A DNA stretch of 64,000 nucleotides from Haloterrigena gelatinilytica (GTDB lineage Archaea; Halobacteriota; Halobacteria; Halobacteriales; Natrialbaceae). The notes beneath the pieces are model-generated. The model was not told the DNA's origin. It made no database searches and worked only from the letters and a program-made list of their open reading frames with translations. Positions within the stretch are counted from its first letter, which is position 1. Every line of letters starts with the position of its first letter. Positions 1,244 to 33,833 of the stretch are shown here, piece by piece. The translations under genes and the position numbers were made by a program. The stretch covers positions 3,348,001-3,412,000 of the forward strand of contig NZ_JABUQZ010000001.1 in NCBI RefSeq assembly GCF_013342145.1, read 5' to 3'.

Positions 1244-4200
1244 TCAGGAGCCGTCGGCGAGCGAGAGCGTCTCGTCGTCGAACAGGCGCGCCAGCAGCCG
1301 CTGCTGGCCGATCCGGAGGTGGCGGTTGACCGTCGGCTGAGTCACCTCGAGCATCTCGGCGATCTCCTCGCCGGTGCTCTCGCGGGGCCACTCGAAGAAG
1401 CCGGCCAGATACGCCGTCCGAAGCACCTCGAGCTGTCGGTCGGTCAGGTCCTCGAACAGCGACGTCACCAGTTCCTGGCGGGTGTGCATCGTCCGCTGGA
1501 CGTGCCGGCGCGACCGGAGGTCGACGCGCTCGTACCGATCCCGGAGCATCTCGACGAACTCGCGAACGTCGGTCGTCACGGGGACGTCGACGGTGACCTC
1601 GGTCCGGCCCTCGTCGGCCGTGATCGATCGCGGGCTCCCGCCGTGGCGGACCAGCCGCGAGGCGAGGACGTCGCCGGTGACGGTCGCCTCGAACAGACAG
1701 CGCGAGTCGGATTCGGCGACGAGGCGCGCGGACGTCACGGAGACGAGGCCGTCGAGCGCGTCGCGGACGGCCGCCGCCGACGCCCCTCGAGTCTCGAAGA
1801 ACAGGGACGTTTCCGACTCGCCGTGGGTGCCGAGCCCCTCGTAGGTGACCGCGGCGCCGGTCGCCGTCGCGATCCGCGACAGGACGTCGTCGGTCTCGAG
1901 GTCGAGGGTCAGTTCGACGAGCGTCTCGGCGTGAAGGGCTTCCTGGGTTTGGGCCGCGTTGATCGCGTTCGCGATCCCCTCGCCGAGTTCGGCGAACACC
2001 GAGCGCTCGAGGTCGGTGAACGCGTCGGGTTCGTCGGCGTAGACCGTCAGGACGCCGTAGCTGTACTCCTCGAAGGTGAGCGGGACGGCGACGGCCGACT
2101 GGAAGCCCGCGTCGAGCGCGTTCGTTCGCCACGCCTCTCCCTGGAGGCCCTCGACGACGTTCTCGACGACCGTCGGCGTCCCCGATCGAGCGGCCCGAAC
2201 CGCGGGCTCCTGAGATTCCCCCTCGAGACCGAAGTCGACCGCGTCCAGGTACTCCGGGTCGTCGCCGGCCCAGGTGCGCGGCTCGAGGGTCGAGCCGCTC
2301 GCGTCGAGGTCGCCGATCCAGGCGAAGGAGACGTTGTCCGCCGCGACGAGTCGCTCGGGGACGGTTCGCTCGATCTCGTCGCGGCCGTCGGCGCCGATGA
2401 GCGACCGGTCGATCCCGCGGATGATCTCCGTGATCTGGATCTGGCGCCGAAGCCGACGGTTCTGGGCCGCCAGCTCCGCGTCGCGCTCCCGGAGGTTCGC
2501 CTCGCTCTCGAGGCGGTCGAAGGCCGCTTCGGTGGTCGCGACGAGCGTCTCGAACAGCCGTCGGGTTTCGTCGTCGATCGTCGCGGGCGAGGCCAGCAGG
2601 ACGAAGACGCCGTAGTCGCCGATCGGGACGAGCAGCCCGCCGGAAGCGTCGCCGCCGAACAGCGGCGATCGATCGCCGATCTCGGCGTCGTCGACGACGG
2701 TCTGGGTGCCCGTCACGTAGGTCGTCCAGAGCACGGAGTCGCCGTCGCCGACCGCGATGGACGGTGCGCCGCCGGACCGATCGGCGAAGCCGGCCGTCGA
2801 CGAGACCGGTTCGAACCGGTTGGTCTCGGAGTCGAGCAGGTAGACGCCCGCGCTGACGTCGTCGGTCTCGAGCAGTTCGGCGGCCGTCTCGACGACCAGG
2901 TCGGTAACCGTCGACTCCGTCTCCGCGTTGAGCAGGCCGCGGGCGGTCTCGTGGAGCGACTCGAGGGCCAGTTCCCGGCGCTTCCGGTCTGAGATGTCCT
3001 GCACCGTGCCCCGGTACTTGTAGAGGTCGCCGTCCTCGTTCCGGATCGGTTCGCTGATCGCGCGGACCCACCTGATCTCGCCCTCGCGGGTTCGGATCCG
3101 CGTCTCGAGATCGTATCCCGTCCCCGTCTCGAGGGCCGTCTGGACTCGCTCGCGAACGAACGCCCGATCGTCGGGATGGAAGCACTCGATCGTCCGCTCG
3201 AGGTCGGGTGTCGCGTCGGTCGGGAGGTCGTGGAGCCGATACATCTCGTCGGTCCAGGTCGCGGTCCGCGGCTGGGACTCGAGGTCGAGTTCCCAGCCGC
3301 CGATCGTCGCCATCCGCTGGACCCGCTCGAGCAGATCCGTCGTTCGCTCGAGTTCGCGTTCGCGTCGCTTGCGGTCGGTGATGTCCTGCATCGAGCCGCG
3401 GACGGCGACGACCTCGCCGTCGTCGACGATCGGTTCGCCGATCGTCCGCATCCACCGCAGCTCGTCGTCGTACGTGTACATCCGGACCTCGAGATCGTAG
3501 CTCTCGGCGCGCTCGACCGCGTCCTCGACGGCCGAGAGGACGCGGGATCGATCGTCGGGGTGGTACCGCCCGAGCGCCGCCGAGACGTCCCGTTGCGTGG
3601 CGCCGGACGGATCGCGGCCGAACAGGCGCTGGAGTTGGGGGCTCACGGTCAGATCGTAGGGATCGGCCGTCACGTCGAGCTCCCAGCCGCCCACGCCGGC
3701 GATCCGCTGGGCCTGCTCGAGTAATTCGGTCGTCCGTTCGAGTTCGCGCTCGCGTTCCTTGCGGTCGGTGATGTCGCGGACGACCCCCGCCGTGCCCGCG
3801 AACTCGCCGTCCTCTGACGGTAACAACGCCATGTGGTTTTCCGCCTCGATCACGTCGCCGTCGGCGGTCTCGAGGTCCATCTCGAAGGTCTCGTAGAGCT
3901 TGTCCTCCCGGAGCAGCTCCCGGACCAGGTTCCGGGCGGTCTCGAGATTCGTCGGGGACATTACGCTCTCGACGTCCGCCCCGATCAGCGTCTCGGGCTC
4001 GTACCCCGCCAGCGGCTCGATCGCGTCGTTGACGAACTGAAACGTCCCGTCCTCGTCGAGCGTGTAGACCGGGTCGCCGATCGCCTGGATGATCGTCTCG
4101 TAGCGCTCGAGTTCGCGCTCGCGTTCCTTGCGGTCGGTGATGTCGCGGACGACCCCCGCCGTGCCCGCGAACTCGCCGTCCTCGGACGGCAACAGGGCGA

Positions 4201-6412
4201 TGTGCGTTTCGGTCTCGATCACGTCGCCGTCGGCCGTCATGAAATCCGTCTCGACGGTGGCGTACGGTCCCTCCTCCTCACGGAGCAGCTCCCGCACCTG
4301 TTCGCGGGCCCGCTCAAGGTCCGGAGGCGGCAGGAGCGCCGAGACGTCGTCGCCGATCAACGCCTCGGGATCGTACCCCGCCAGGGTCTCGATCGCGTCG
4401 TTGACGAACCGAACCGTCCCGTCCTCGTCGAGCGTGTAGACCGGGTCGCCGATCGACTGGACGATCGTCTCGTAGCGCTCGAGTTCGCGCTCGCGGTGTT
4501 TGCGGTCGGTGACGTCCTGCATCGACCCCCGAACGGCGACGGTTTCCCCGCCTTCGCGGACGGGATCGCCGATCACCCGGACCCAGCGCGGCTCGCCGTC
4601 GGTCGATCGGAGTCGCGCCTCGAGATCGTACGCCTCGCCGTCCTCGACGGCGCCGGAAAGCGCCGACCGAATCGCCGGCCGATCGTCCGGACGGAACTGC
4701 GCGAGCATCTTGTCGGGCGTCAGGGTCGTTCCCGGCTCGAGGTCGAGTTGCCGGTAGAACTCGTCGGACGCGGTCACCTCGTAGGGATCCCCGCGGACGT
4801 CGATTTCCACGCCGCCGACCGACGCCAGCCGCTGGGCCTGCTCGAGCAGTTCGGTCGTCCGCTCCAGATCGCGCTCGTAGCGGGTCCGTTCGGAGATGTC
4901 GCGACCGATGCCGGTCACGACGGTCTCGCCCTCGAGGTCCTCGAGTCGAGTCGCGACGAACTCGTAGGGGATCGATTCGCCGTCGGCGGTCCGGATCGGC
5001 ACCTCCACGCGGGCCGTGCCGGTCTCGAGAACCTCGGCGATCGCCTCGTTGATGGCCGGCCGATCCGCCTCGGCGAAGAACTCGACGGCGTCCATCGAGT
5101 CGATCTCGTCGGCGTCGTAGCCGGAGACCGTGGCGAGCGACTCGTTCCACCGCAGGAGGGCCCCGTCCTCGTCGATCACGTAGAACACGTCGTCGATGGC
5201 GTCGAGGACGTCGTCGGTGTAGGCCTTGTATCGCTGCAGTTCCCGCTCGCGCTCGCGCAACCGCCGCTCGTCGGCCTTCCGGTCGGTCACGTCGCGACTG
5301 ATCGCCAGAAACCGGGTCTCGTCGGCGAAATCGATCCGGATCAGGTGGACCTCGACGGGGAACGTCGAGCCGTCGCGGCGGCGGTATCGGCCCTCGAACT
5401 TGCGCCGCTCGCCGACCGAGAGCTCCGCGAGCAGCGCCTCGACGTCGGCGGCGTCGAACAGCGCTTCGTACTCCCAGATCTTCGTGCCGACCAGCTCCGA
5501 CTCCTCGTACCCCAGCATCTCGCAGAACCGGTGGTTCGCCTCGACGATCGTCCCCTCGGTATCGAGCACGTCGATCATGTCGGGAGAGTTCTCGAACAGC
5601 GCCTCGAGGCGCGCGCTCGTCGACTCTAGCCGGCGTTCGCGGTCCTTGCGCTCGGTGATGTCCTCGAGGGCGCCCATCGTGCCGACGATCTCGCCGTCGG
5701 CGCCGTAGATCGGGGCGGCGGAGATACTCACGTCGATCCGCTCGCCGTCTTTCGTCACCCGCCGGGTCTCGAGCCCGGCGATCGACTCGCCATCGAACAG
5801 TCGGTCGAAGATCTCGCGGTGGTCTTCCGCCCGGTCGTCCGGAACGAACGGCAGCGGTTCGTCGAGCACCTCGTCCTCGCTCCAGCCGAAGACGCGTTCG
5901 GCGGCGGGGTTCCACAGCGTCACCGTCTCGTCGGTGTCGAGCGCGACCAGCGCCGACGGCGAGGCTTCGATCACCGCCCCGAGGCGTTCGTTCGTCTCCC
6001 GGAGCTCCCGTTCGCGCTCGTCGAACCGGCGCTCGCGCTCCCGGACCGCCGCCGTCAGTTCGTCGATCGCCGTCGAGAGGCGGCCGAGGGCGTCGTCGCG
6101 GTCGAGTTCGAAGTCGACGGCTTCGGCGTCCGCTTCGGGACCGGCGATCGCTTCGCCGACCTCGCCGTCGCGAATCCGCGAGACGAACGTCTCGAGTTCG
6201 CCCGCGAGGCGCTCGAGCGTCGGCTCCCGATCGGCGCCGCCGCGAGCGGCGAGTCCGAGGACGAACGGGAGCGGAACGATCGACGGGTCGTGGAGTTGCG
6301 GTCCGAGACCGAGGAGTAGCGCACCGACGAGAATCACCCCGAGGAGGACCGGCGACCGCCGCCGGCCGAGAGACCCGTCGAGGGCGCCGCTGCGTGACGA
6401 ACGACTGACCAT
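1244..6412 (-). CDS. Giant PAS(8)-GAF(2)-HTH_10 sensor/transcription regulator (Bat-like)
   Basis: 1722 residues. Order by eye: one or two N-terminal membrane segments (about 18-55), a linker with Arg/Glu-rich coiled coil to about 140, then eight PAS units beginning near residues 145, 270, 400, 530, 646, 769, 900 and 1035, each ending in a DITDRK/DISDRK-type S-box tail. Two GAF domains follow (about 1154 and 1330), a bacterio-opsin-activator N-domain (about 1499) and a C-terminal HTH_10 (LTDRQLEVLRTAYLAGFFEW near 1659; TQPTVNRHLR recognition helix). No histidine-kinase domain is present, so signals are probably passed directly to DNA binding, as in Halobacterium Bat. PAS5 and PAS6 are near-identical copies. 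A HalOD1 gene is divergent upstream. The signal is not deducible. Confidence 0.9.
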   Translation of the reverse strand: MVSRSSRSGALDGSLGRRRSPVLLGVILVGALLLGLGPQLHDPSIVPLPFVLGLAARGGADREPTLERLAGELETFVSRIRDGEVGEAIAGPEADAEAVDFELDRDDALGRLSTAIDELTAAVRERERRFDERERELRETNERLGAVIEASPSALVALDTDETVTLWNPAAERVFGWSEDEVLDEPLPFVPDDRAEDHREIFDRLFDGESIAGLETRRVTKDGERIDVSISAAPIYGADGEIVGTMGALEDITERKDRERRLESTSARLEALFENSPDMIDVLDTEGTIVEANHRFCEMLGYEESELVGTKIWEYEALFDAADVEALLAELSVGERRKFEGRYRRRDGSTFPVEVHLIRIDFADETRFLAISRDVTDRKADERRLRERERELQRYKAYTDDVLDAIDDVFYVIDEDGALLRWNESLATVSGYDADEIDSMDAVEFFAEADRPAINEAIAEVLETGTARVEVPIRTADGESIPYEFVATRLEDLEGETVVTGIGRDISERTRYERDLERTTELLEQAQRLASVGGVEIDVRGDPYEVTASDEFYRQLDLEPGTTLTPDKMLAQFRPDDRPAIRSALSGAVEDGEAYDLEARLRSTDGEPRWVRVIGDPVREGGETVAVRGSMQDVTDRKHRERELERYETIVQSIGDPVYTLDEDGTVRFVNDAIETLAGYDPEALIGDDVSALLPPPDLERAREQVRELLREEEGPYATVETDFMTADGDVIETETHIALLPSEDGEFAGTAGVVRDITDRKERERELERYETIIQAIGDPVYTLDEDGTFQFVNDAIEPLAGYEPETLIGADVESVMSPTNLETARNLVRELLREDKLYETFEMDLETADGDVIEAENHMALLPSEDGEFAGTAGVVRDITDRKERERELERTTELLEQAQRIAGVGGWELDVTADPYDLTVSPQLQRLFGRDPSGATQRDVSAALGRYHPDDRSRVLSAVEDAVERAESYDLEVRMYTYDDELRWMRTIGEPIVDDGEVVAVRGSMQDITDRKRRERELERTTDLLERVQRMATIGGWELDLESQPRTATWTDEMYRLHDLPTDATPDLERTIECFHPDDRAFVRERVQTALETGTGYDLETRIRTREGEIRWVRAISEPIRNEDGDLYKYRGTVQDISDRKRRELALESLHETARGLLNAETESTVTDLVVETAAELLETDDVSAGVYLLDSETNRFEPVSSTAGFADRSGGAPSIAVGDGDSVLWTTYVTGTQTVVDDAEIGDRSPLFGGDASGGLLVPIGDYGVFVLLASPATIDDETRRLFETLVATTEAAFDRLESEANLRERDAELAAQNRRLRRQIQITEIIRGIDRSLIGADGRDEIERTVPERLVAADNVSFAWIGDLDASGSTLEPRTWAGDDPEYLDAVDFGLEGESQEPAVRAARSGTPTVVENVVEGLQGEAWRTNALDAGFQSAVAVPLTFEEYSYGVLTVYADEPDAFTDLERSVFAELGEGIANAINAAQTQEALHAETLVELTLDLETDDVLSRIATATGAAVTYEGLGTHGESETSLFFETRGASAAAVRDALDGLVSVTSARLVAESDSRCLFEATVTGDVLASRLVRHGGSPRSITADEGRTEVTVDVPVTTDVREFVEMLRDRYERVDLRSRRHVQRTMHTRQELVTSLFEDLTDRQLEVLRTAYLAGFFEWPRESTGEEIAEMLEVTQPTVNRHLRIGQQRLLARLFDDETLSLADGS
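3742..4479 (-). repeat. In-frame tandem duplication of one PAS unit (369-bp period)
   Basis: Within the giant regulator, the DNA at 3742-4110 recurs at 4111-4479. At least 60 bp from about 3750 to 3815 matches 4119 to 4184 without change, and the protein copies share EFAGTAGVVRDITDRKERER and IGDPVYTLDEDGT. The exact 123-codon period keeps the frame. The level of nucleotide identity points to a recent duplication or ongoing gene conversion, since the other six PAS units are well diverged. Confidence 0.85.
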
Positions 6413-30189: not shown

Positions 30190-30880
30190 CTATCCCGGCA
30201 TACCAGCTAGCCCTACAAGTGTGTGCCGACCTCGGAGCGCCAGTCGACGGCGTCGACGCCGTCTCAACACAGGATGAGGCCGTCATAGAACTACTCGCAT
30301 GGGGTTGCGGCACTGTCTATATAACGGAAACCGCAAGATAGGACGATGACGAAGTGACGGTATCGGTCGTGAAACCACCAGCTATGATCTGACACAACGA
30401 AACCCGGTTCCACGAGCGGCGAACATTCGACTGCTTCAGCAAACGTCTCAGAAGAAGTGATAACCCCAGATTGTACGGTCTTTTCTGCGACAGGTTCTGA
30501 AACACCGTTCTACAGTAGAAGCGCTTAACTAGACAGTGCCAAATAATAAATCTTATCCGATATATTTTGGCAGCCGGAACACGGATATCCCTGTCGAAAA
30601 TAGCGATGAGAACTCCCGGTAATGTTGTCAACACGAGGAGTAATTCTTTTATATAACCAGTGAAAATGAATCTAGATCAACAAACAGAGCTATCAGTCGC
30701 TCTAATCTCAGAGTTCATTCGAAACTATTTACCGAATTTAAATGGATCTCTGGTGACAGTAATAACCGGGCAACACGCCACAAGGGGGGAAATTGCAGTT
30801 TCCTCGTGATGAGCAACAGCACCGTCATACGAGGGATGTTCCCTACTGTGGCCTATGTTGCCTGACACGGTGACTGAACA
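30190..30880. other. 691-bp AT-rich region without a convincing gene
   Basis: GC drops sharply from about 30340. There are several TATA-like tracts (ATATATTTTGG about 30561, TTTTATATAACC about 30648, AACTATTTACCG about 30722). A 105-codon minus ORF (30317-30634) has many Cys, Arg and Leu and no halophile acidity; I judge it non-coding. The stretch 30340-30420 has the feel of an insertion-sequence end, but I found no partner end. Confidence 0.45.
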
Positions 30881-31252
30881 ATGAAACGTGCACTTTCAAT
30901 TGTACTGGCAGTAGTAGTGATAGGTAGCGTGCTGTTTGCAGGCGGCGTGGTTGCGCACGACTACGACGACAAACACGACAAAAAGCACGACAAAAAGCAC
31001 GACGACAAACACGACAAAAAGCACGACAAAAAGCACGACGACAAACACGACAAAAAGCACGACAAAAAGCACGACGACAAACACGACGACAAACACGACA
31101 AAAAGCACGAAATCGACTTCGGGGACGACTTCCCCTTCAACCACAAAGACGACAAGATCGATTTCCCCTTTGACCACAAAGACGACGACCACAAAGACGG
31201 CGGTCCTACCCCTTGTGAACTAGATCCTGCCTGTGATCCTGTCCCTAATTGA
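30881..31252 (+). CDS. Secreted (D[D/K]KH)12 tetrapeptide-repeat protein
   Basis: 123 residues. A clear Sec signal (MKRALSIVLAVVVIGSVLFA, cleavage about residue 26) is followed by 12 consecutive tetrapeptides DDKH or DKKH (30965-31108), mostly in a DDKH-DKKH-DKKH super-pattern. A C-terminal part has two DFPF(N/D)HKDD units and a pair of cysteines (PCELDPACDP). The dense His/Asp array would bind divalent metals such as Zn, Ni or Cu outside the cell. No anchor is seen. Lysine-rich, AT-richer and unlike its neighbours in composition, it lies in an AT-rich island next to a dead transposase, so it was perhaps acquired. No known family comes to mind. Confidence 0.65.
   Translation: MKRALSIVLAVVVIGSVLFAGGVVAHDYDDKHDKKHDKKHDDKHDKKHDKKHDDKHDKKHDKKHDDKHDDKHDKKHEIDFGDDFPFNHKDDKIDFPFDHKDDDHKDGGPTPCELDPACDPVPN
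30965..31108 (+). repeat. 12-bp tandem repeat array (12 units) inside the secreted protein
   Basis: Units are either GACGACAAACAC or GACAAAAAGCAC with no synonymous variation, so codon choice is frozen within each unit type. This points to recent expansion at DNA level by slippage or unequal exchange. Confidence 0.9.
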
Positions 31253-31464
31253 CTGACTCACCCATTCACACTATTTTTGATGCGATCGTTGCAACTCATC
31301 AAATAAATAACGGCAATATCTGATCAGAACCTGGAGAGTGTGCGTTCGAACACTACGAGAATGCGGACACAGATCACAGGATGAGAGTCGTTGATCGGTA
31401 CTGCCGACTGATGCAAAATCAGTCGATCACATCGGACTAGAACGAGTATCTGCTTGGAGAAGGT

Positions 31465-32046
31465 GTGGAATCAACCCGAGCAGACAACGAGCTAAAAGAA
31501 GAGCACCTGCTTAATTTTGTCGTCAACAGTCTCGATAGGGAACTTTCGCTGGAGCTCGGGGAGAACGAGGAGGTCACGACAGAGGGCCTCGATCAATCAC
31601 GTCTGCGAGAAAACTAACGACTCGCCCCACGCCAATACCATCCGTGGATATCTTACCGATCAGTTCGATCTTGATACCGTTGGAGCGGCCGGGAACACGC
31701 TTCTTCAACGGGATGTCCTTGAGACGCCTCCAGATCGACCGGCGGAGGTCGTCGCCGACCTCCACCTCGATCCCTCCTACGGTGACGAGGACGAGACGGA
31801 GTCACTGTACTTCTCGCAGGCGAAACGAGGAACCACCGCCTTTCACGCCTACTTCACGCTCTACGCGCGGGTGCGTAACAAGCGATACACGCTAGCAGTT
31901 CTCCAGTTGGTCGTTGGCGAAGCCACCAGCGATGCTCTTGGTAAGTTCTTCGAACTCCTTGACGGCCTTGACGCGCAGGTCAAGGCCGTCTACCTTGACC
32001 GCGGATTCTACAACAGCACCTGCCTCGAACTCGCTCGTGTTCGCCG
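31465..32046 (+). pseudogene. Broken ISH3-family transposase
   Basis: From a GTG at 31465 one frame reads ELKEEHLLNFVVNSLDREL, the ISH3 N-terminus. After about residue 37 the frame changes to SINHVCEKTNDSPHANTIRG, then GNTLLQRDVLETPPDRPAEV, ADLHLDPSYGDEDETESLY, AKRGTTAFHAYFTLYARV and AVYLDRGFYNSTCLEL, where homology ends near 32046. The segment between the two frames (the ACADGTS region) is deleted and the C-terminal half with the last catalytic Glu is gone. The DDE catalytic block is therefore incomplete. The remnant ends 25 bp from the stop codon of the next gene. Confidence 0.85.
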
Positions 32047-32070
32047 TTCGCGGTTGGACCGGATTCGTGC

Positions 32071-32864: not shown

Positions 32865-33833
32865 TCAGTATCGCTGTCCGGTCACCTCGGAGCCGCCCCT
32901 CGGCTGACCGCTCATTCCCTGCCCGTACTCTCCCTGTTCGGCCATCCCTCGCATCCCTCGAGACCCGGTCGATCCGGCGCCGGTTCCGGTCCCCTGACGA
33001 CCCTGAGAGCCCCCGCCGACCCGCCGGAGGAGGCTCTCGCAGGAGTTCATCGTTCGCTCGATCGTCGCTACCGTCTCGAGGACGTGCGGGTGGCGATCCC
33101 GGAACTGCCGAAGCGTCGGGAGCCCCTCGTCGGCGACCCGCAGGAACGCGGTCGCGATCTCCGGGCCGAACATCGAGTCGCGGGCGATCAGCATCTCGTT
33201 GAGCGCCGCGATCTCGGCGAGATCCTGGCAGATTCGGGCGCAGCGTCCGAGCTCCGGTCCGCCGCTCGCACACCGCGTGGCACACCAGGCGGCGACGTGG
33301 GAAAGCTCGCTGAAGTCCTCGAGGGCGATCCACAGCTCGTCGGTCATGTGGTCCTCGAAGAAGGGGGCCTGCGTAGTCTGCCCACCGCCCCGCTGCTGCA
33401 TCCCCCGCGTCGGCGAAGCCTGCGGTGTCCCTCGCGTCTCGGTTCGGCGGGTACCCTGCGTTCCGGTTTGGTGGGGTCCCTGCCTCCCCATCCGGTGGGA
33501 GTTCGTCCGCTGGCCGTCCCGGTGGCCGCTCATTCGCTGCCCGCCTCGCTGACGGCCGCGCATCGGTTCGCTCCCCCGGTCGGCTATCGGCCGACCGGCC
33601 TGCTGTCGGGGGTCCTCCTGCTGGTCGGTCGTTGACCGGCTGGTACTCGGCCCCCGGTCACGTGTCATGCTCGTCTCCCGGCCGCCCGTCTCGGACTGTT
33701 CGGACGAGCCGCCGAACTGCGGCTGGGCGTCCATTCCGGTGCCCGTTCGCGTCCCCGGTCCCCTCGCCTCGGGTCGCTGGCCGTACTGTTCGCCGGTTCG
33801 GTCGTGCTGCCGCTGATCCGAGTGATGAGTCAT
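32865..33833 (-). CDS. Low-complexity protein with C-terminal Cys-containing four-helix (Csp-like) domain
   Basis: 322 residues. Residues 1-155 and 265-322 are disordered and rich in Gln, Gly, Arg and Thr. Between them (about 155-262) is a helical domain: LSHVAAWCATRCASGGPELG, RCARICQDLAEIAALNEML, a helix with HPHVLETVATIERTMNSCESLL. The W-C-x3-C and C-x3-C helix spacing recalls the four-helix copper-storage (Csp/DUF326-like) proteins, but most of the later Cys-rich helix positions are lost. It could be a degenerate copper or redox protein. The unusual basic, Gln-rich tails are atypical of halophiles. Confidence 0.6.
   Translation of the reverse strand: MTHHSDQRQHDRTGEQYGQRPEARGPGTRTGTGMDAQPQFGGSSEQSETGGRETSMTRDRGPSTSRSTTDQQEDPRQQAGRPIADRGSEPMRGRQRGGQRMSGHRDGQRTNSHRMGRQGPHQTGTQGTRRTETRGTPQASPTRGMQQRGGGQTTQAPFFEDHMTDELWIALEDFSELSHVAAWCATRCASGGPELGRCARICQDLAEIAALNEMLIARDSMFGPEIATAFLRVADEGLPTLRQFRDRHPHVLETVATIERTMNSCESLLRRVGGGSQGRQGTGTGAGSTGSRGMRGMAEQGEYGQGMSGQPRGGSEVTGQRY

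Follow-up and report, generated by a model that had tools for sequence, protein, structure and literature searches.

Among the closest described systems to the small exported haloarchaeal proteins that we define in the present work as the MKR family is curli CsgA (PF07012), which they resemble only in the way they would work: exported tandem repeats with ladders of Gln and Asn (Q/N), on small and large subunits. The family unit, QxQxVxQxNxNxQ...SxAxAxQxxxQxNxNxQ, is longer and different, and no family protein that we scanned matched the curlin Pfam model PF07012 at E ≤ 1. In Haloferax volcanii, biofilm material stains with Congo red and thioflavin T, the putative amyloid protein is not established, and the study names HVO_1403 (PMC4180959). 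Judged from its sequences alone, the MKR family might be a candidate kind of component of such material in its own lineages; HVO_1403 is not MKR-like, and we found the family in two taxonomic families only (f1 and f17). His-rich metal proteins (ZrgA, NF047873) share low-complexity His/Asp tracts in an exported protein with the gene described below, but its product has no match to them near the curated cut-off and the sequence context is entirely different. Structured leaders are described as not typical for haloarchaea; 72% of the mapped protein-coding transcripts of Haloferax volcanii are leaderless (PMC4983044). In a reporter in the same species a stabilised 5' UTR stem abolished translation (PMC2636863), and as of 2021 the fluoride riboswitch is cited as the only natural archaeal one with experimental proof (PMC8241225).

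In this study we analysed a stretch of 64 kb from Haloterrigena gelatinilytica, here called the window, which carries a gene for a repeat protein rich in Asp, Lys and His (D/K/H). Signal peptide, promoter and 5' leader, three independent features of the sequence, identify this gene as a dispersed, mobile and stripped-down member of the MKR family. In our overall reading, which we hold at slightly better than even odds (about 0.55), this member was carried by mobile elements and encodes an exported polyampholyte that joins or coats extracellular Q/N material under the control of the leader. The features concerned are the following.

30266-32058, between the PHO4-family transporter gene and the DUF5828 gene: strain-specific insertion of ~1.8 kb, from congener comparison
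30309-30540: MITE-like element of ~232 bp with 16-nt terminal inverted repeats GGCACTGTCTATATAA / TTAACTAGACAGTGCC
30723-30765, plus strand: conserved family promoter region, consensus AACnGTTnnnnGGGTTCAAGT, window version AACTATTTACCGAATTTAAAT
30766-30864, plus strand: structured 5' leader, a long hairpin, from fold energy, R1 match and stem covariation
30881-31252, plus strand: D/K/H repeat protein gene, 123 aa, ATG start, TGA stop, orthologue in the congener G003
30881-30955, plus strand: Sec signal peptide MKRALSIVLAVVVIGSVLFAGGVVA of the family type, from the profile A7 match and constraint relative to G003
30965-31108, plus strand: (D[D/K]KH)12 polyampholyte tract, FCR 0.75, net charge per residue +0.04, 12 His in 48 residues
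31109-31204, plus strand: two DFPF(N/D)HKDD units and an Asp/Lys/His-rich stretch, kept in G003
31205-31249, plus strand: C-terminal tail PTPCELDPACDPVPN with two Cys, codons CELDPACDPVSN out of frame in G003
31508-32058, plus strand: ISH3-family transposase remnant, truncated at the right end of the insertion

A first-pass annotation had described a signal peptide, 12 copies of D[D/K]KH, two DFPF units and two cysteines, and this description is exact. The repeat consists of exactly two 12-bp DNA words, GACGACAAACAC (DDKH, 5 copies) and GACAAAAAGCAC (DKKH, 7 copies), arranged in a 36-bp higher-order unit. All copies of each word are identical, in line with the recent, codon-frozen expansion that had been proposed. 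Tandem Repeats Finder reports a period of 36 with 4.1 copies, 97% match and a score of 275; hence the repeat is a true tandem array. The tetrapeptide array is followed by DFPFNHKDD, DFPFDHKDD and CELDPAC, in this order. We infer cleavage of the signal peptide after A25, which gives a mature protein of 98 aa with 33 acidic and 23 basic residues, 16 His and 2 Cys. The protein has an FCR of 0.57 and a net charge near neutral, and its 48-residue repeat falls deep within the disordered part of a charge-hydropathy plot. Three further remarks of the annotation were borne out, namely secretion, the Lys content, unusual for an exported haloarchaeal protein, and the location in an AT-rich island (GC 45-50% over about 30250-31750 vs about 68% around it).

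Searches with the D/K/H protein gave no match near cut-off to metal-protein families of Pfam or NCBIfam, no match and no related solved structure in a PDB sequence search, and no relative in the plasmids and phages searched. Matches to V_ATPase_I, Connexin, EbpS and other Pfam/NCBIfam models are far below the curated cut-offs and represent low-complexity noise, and the frames that overlap the repeat on the reverse strand arise mechanically. A scan of genome contigs for relatives returned only a convergent D/K/H protein from Halocatena marina and an unrelated RHS-like protein. The former, in strain DFN5 (L088 5476-6447), combines a twin-arginine-like start with ~8 copies of RDEKHDDWKHDKK and is apparently of independent origin.

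The gene had been thought to resemble no family. We found an orthologue in G003 and clear family members in other genera, and by its signal peptide, promoter and 5' leader it belongs to a haloarchaeal family that is widespread and has no name so far. The signal peptide of this family reads MKRxLxITLTVALIGSLMFMGFAGTAAA, and that of the D/K/H protein conforms to it. Profile A7, made from 18 such signal peptides, none from the window's genus, ranked the D/K/H gene first in its own genome with an E value of 1.3e-5; two Q/N-type paralogues came next at 1.4e-4 and 1.6e-4, followed by a gap to E 0.3. Within the order, the signal-peptide profile search found 54 of 293 genomes, all in f1 and f17. With a related protein of G034 as query, 71 of 125 genomes in the taxonomic family yielded similar proteins, the similarity lying mostly in the signal peptide. 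Neither Pfam nor NCBIfam holds a model covering the small or the large proteins of the MKR type, and the family is not described in the open-licence literature on haloarchaeal curli/curlin and on prion-like archaeal proteins.

For the promoter and the 5' arm of the leader we built a matrix from 17 non-redundant sites, all in other genera. It scored 33.1 at the D/K/H gene compared to -1.5 at the next best site in 64 kb, and we consider this sequence match decisive. The promoter alone reached 11.7 on the gene strand; an overlapping site on the opposite strand scored 14.6 because the TATA-like part is palindromic. Leaders of the family share the layout GGGCAACGCGYCACA ... variable hairpin ... UGUGAUGCGUGCC, end about 9-40 nt upstream of the ATG and fold with about -35 to -65 kcal/mol. 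The window leader has an MFE of -46.4 kcal/mol and a z score of -4.2, with z scores of -3.2 to -5.9 for five other leaders. It was also the top match in 64 kb of the covariance model R1, built without the window, at exactly the expected position (17.7 bits, E 0.058 in 64 kb, next 9.5); taken alone, this match is modest. Over 45 loci, 41 of 48 R1 matches lay 9-40 nt upstream of a family ATG. Exact copies of GGGCAACGCGYCACA in 19 genomes were all found upstream of family genes (14/14), and the sole copy with at most one mismatch in the own genome is that of the window leader.

Covariation was scored on a MAFFT alignment of 16 leaders, 15 from other genera and one from the plasmid-borne congener paralogue L087, that contained neither the window leader nor that of the G003 orthologue. 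The 15-bp basal stem is 86% paired in this alignment, and 5 of its 15 pairs are changed on both sides. Its covariation score of 0.210 (shuffled 0.160 ± 0.012) is above all 500 shuffles and above every slid version. In a larger, model-fitted leader set 10 of the 15 pairs covary, an alignment that leans to the structure and that we treat as secondary evidence. Rfam 15 gave no match at E ≤ 1 in the window region and eight relative loci. A TATA-like element lies ~28-30 nt upstream of the leader, and from this spacing the transcript would probably start at the hairpin, placing the leader at or near the 5' end of the mRNA. A DNA palindrome (operator or cruciform) is disfavoured as an explanation, as two stem positions prefer G.U pairs, which would be mismatches in DNA.

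Like archaeal riboswitches and structured leaders, the MKR leader is a conserved, covarying 5' UTR fold in front of one gene family; it differs from them by having no match in Rfam, a variable apical part and conservation of the basal stem only. Because of these last two properties, a hairpin that binds a protein or protects the 5' end seems a better comparison than a ligand pocket. We regard this conserved and strongly folded leader as the most surprising part of our findings, since leaderless transcripts dominate in Haloferax and the stabilised stem silenced the reporter there. At the f17 loci L165-L172, a different conserved element stands ahead of the ATG of distant members, e.g. GGGTGGGACGG ... 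CTCTCCCGCCCGGAGAGAAAACCATG, and may form another kind of leader hairpin.

The mature parts of typical family members are rich in Asp, Gln and Asn with Q and N alternating, and their usual Q/N-ladder repeat, QxQxVxQxNxNxQ, is curli-like in design. In many genomes the small genes stand in tandem between LarC/CDC48 and a divergent exported protein of ~520 aa, which has five Q/N-ladder repeats with invariant Q and N columns. From these sequences, most MKR family members appear to be subunits from which an extracellular fibre would be built. The own genome has such an ancestral locus with two small genes and one large gene, and a second large gene elsewhere whose product begins in a twin-arginine-like manner; the two small Q/N-type paralogues lie in tandem at 957.4-958.1 kb. 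Two unannotated large Q/N proteins are found on contig 1 at ~3,063,800-3,065,390 (L068 7797-9386) and ~959,234-960,748 (L031 11235-12749). Both have ~505-525 aa, are of the exported type and contain five Q/N-ladder repeats; the one with the twin-arginine-like start also has a poly-Lys tail. The viral contigs searched held no relatives of these large proteins. Next to the small exported genes of the ancestral locus we repeatedly found a small protein with the motif T(E)TEFxWG (L031 8415-9047, L074 9788-10276, L027 8144-8452).

The Q/N-ladder repeat is absent from the D/K/H protein and present in relatives with a similar D/K/H tract. A small hybrid protein of G007 consists of signal peptide, HDYHDDKHDNDKH... 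(AAAHDYHDDKHDNDKHDKH...) and Q/N repeat, and one of G034 of signal peptide, GSYDDKHDKDKH... and Q/N repeat; both are sister-genus members and are encoded at the ancestral locus beside LarC and CDC48. Two large Q/N proteins carry linkers of the DDKKHDDK... type between repeats three and four, and distant f17 members have DKKDDKKDK, DKHDKKDK or HSSGHGGGHDDGGHHDGG at the corresponding place. As D/K/H tracts are joined to Q/N repeats in these relatives, the D/K/H protein seems to correspond to their spacer half and is best read as a spacer-only paralogue.

The D/K/H gene is not part of the CDC48 - LarC - small genes - large Q/N gene - RadB neighbourhood and lies in an insertion elsewhere. In G001, G002 and G003 the PHO4 and DUF5828 genes are directly joined, so that window ~30265 abuts ~32059 and ~30266-32058 is an insertion. 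From left to right it comprises the MITE, the promoter-leader-gene cassette and the truncated ISH3 transposase. The MITE-like element has three copies in the congener G004 (83-86% identity), and its right end is the exact start of the cassette homology with G003 (30541). To the right of the gene, the translated frame of the remnant matches the ISH3 family transposase (NCBIfam NF033541, E 9.3e-46), but it is a truncated relic only and under that model's full-length cut-off; it shares 91% DNA identity with a G004 locus over 372 bp. An insertion with a MITE and an ISH3 relic explains the low GC and the isolation of the gene. The gene had been said to stand alone; this isolation is that of a recent insertion, and relatives exist elsewhere. 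As such, the D/K/H gene shows that a cassette of promoter, leader and signal peptide can travel with a rapidly expanding low-complexity export product. In G004 and G005 (L130, L132) other DNA of ~3.6 kb lies between the PHO4 and DUF5828 genes, and the repeated use of this one site may mark it as a hot spot of integration.

We found the D/K/H gene in only two of six genomes of the genus, which weighs against our overall reading. The orthologue of G003 (contig 1, 433,210) is identical to the D/K/H protein in its first 28 residues; its D/K/H repeat is different and longer, and the DFPF part is present. Several of its units have KY where others have KH, with the charge pattern retained. Homology to the window also covers ~340 bp upstream at 84-87% DNA identity, and the surrounding genes differ. 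Over the 28 codons of the signal peptide there are 7 synonymous and 0 non-synonymous changes, hence the protein appears constrained at its export end with the repeat evolving freely, and by this codon comparison the signal peptide is under selection. The first-pass annotation had named a broken frame in homologues as speaking against its proposal. In G003 the reading frame is unbroken from the signal peptide over the repeat to the DFPF part, and only the last ~12 codons are shifted: the codons CELDPACDPVSN are kept but frameshifted (L025 9594-9710) and the protein ends in DDDMRTGSGM. As these codons persist out of frame, the Cys tail is probably ancestral and was recently lost in G003.

As to the history and role of the D/K/H copy, we propose that it kept only the D/K/H part, expanded that part and moved within the island bearing MITE and ISH3. 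The exported protein would be a disordered, nearly neutral polyampholyte which joins or coats extracellular Q/N-repeat material and might keep it hydrated and soluble in high salt. Its Asp and His residues would bind cations weakly, and the two Cys may tether or cross-link it. It would be co-expressed with the Q/N proteins, the 5'-end leader controlling, jointly for all family members, how long the message lives or how well it is translated. Judged from the sequence, the likeliest role is that of a hydrophilic polyampholyte of the extracellular matrix, and metal binding is possible. As the mature protein has no Q/N repeat, we infer its association with Q/N fibres from the relatives and the shared regulation only; for the putative fibres themselves, neither a curlin match in Pfam nor a related solved structure was found. 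It might even be possible, though we put this forward tentatively, that haloarchaea have a dedicated system of extracellular fibres analogous in function to curli, with small Q/N and large five-repeat subunits and D/K/H spacers, which the structured leader, an RNA not described before, would unite in a single post-transcriptional regulon. If so, the D/K/H gene would encode a component with the spacer only, dispersed by mobile elements. With the coordinates given here, an unannotated exported Q/N-repeat family with D/K/H spacers makes the question of a haloarchaeal fibre testable.

Among the alternatives, an extracellular metal chelator survives best, although we consider it rather doubtful. 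Here His at every fourth residue, the flanking Asp and CELDPAC would buffer or scavenge Zn, Ni or Cu. The 16 His in 98 mature residues suit such a function, as do the D/H-rich tracts, such as HSSGHGGGHDDGGHHDGG and GGDHHHDDDD, that distant members have just behind the signal peptide. In a set of 48 non-redundant members His makes up 2.6% of the first 30 mature residues vs 1.0% of the rest, but most family members are without His tracts, and some units of the G003 orthologue have KY where others have KH. The ancestral locus adjoins the nickel-cofactor gene LarC; however, this is an unselected chromosomal setting, the window copy has neither a metal transporter nor a metal regulator beside it, and the NCBIfam matches to metal proteins are far below cut-off. 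Nothing in the present findings favours metal binding over the polyampholyte or spacer role.

An improbable alternative is that the protein is a free-standing polyelectrolyte for hydration or surface conditioning which has no relation to Q/N fibres, its promoter, leader and signal peptide being no more than borrowed from the family. Its FCR of 0.57 and near-neutral net charge would fit, and polyampholytes can be free-standing too: secreted Asp/Lys/Ala/His repeat proteins of ~280-345 aa are encoded on the minus strand in G034 (L008) and G054 (L009), both of genus g3, with another signal peptide (SKRxIALVMALMMAVA) and a C-terminal CYC/YYC. The convergent protein of Halocatena marina points the same way. 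However, the hybrids with a Q/N repeat also have HDY and DKH directly after the signal peptide, and this favours descent over borrowing. Least likely is a decaying passenger of the mobile island that has lost expression or function: the IS and MITE debris, the absence of the insertion from most congeners, the loss of the orthologue's Cys tail by frameshift and the freely expanding repeat are outweighed by an intact, family-type promoter and leader, by a signal peptide with synonymous changes only since divergence, and by a frame kept despite very different repeat lengths.

Apart from the polyampholyte gene, we noted two other features in the window. At 32865-33833 on the minus strand lies a 322-aa ORF, without a match in Pfam, that has low-complexity ends rich in Gln, Gly, Arg and Thr and a core containing Cys. 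At 3738-4531 a 372-bp direct tandem repeat (2.1 copies, 84%) is found in an apparent coding region.
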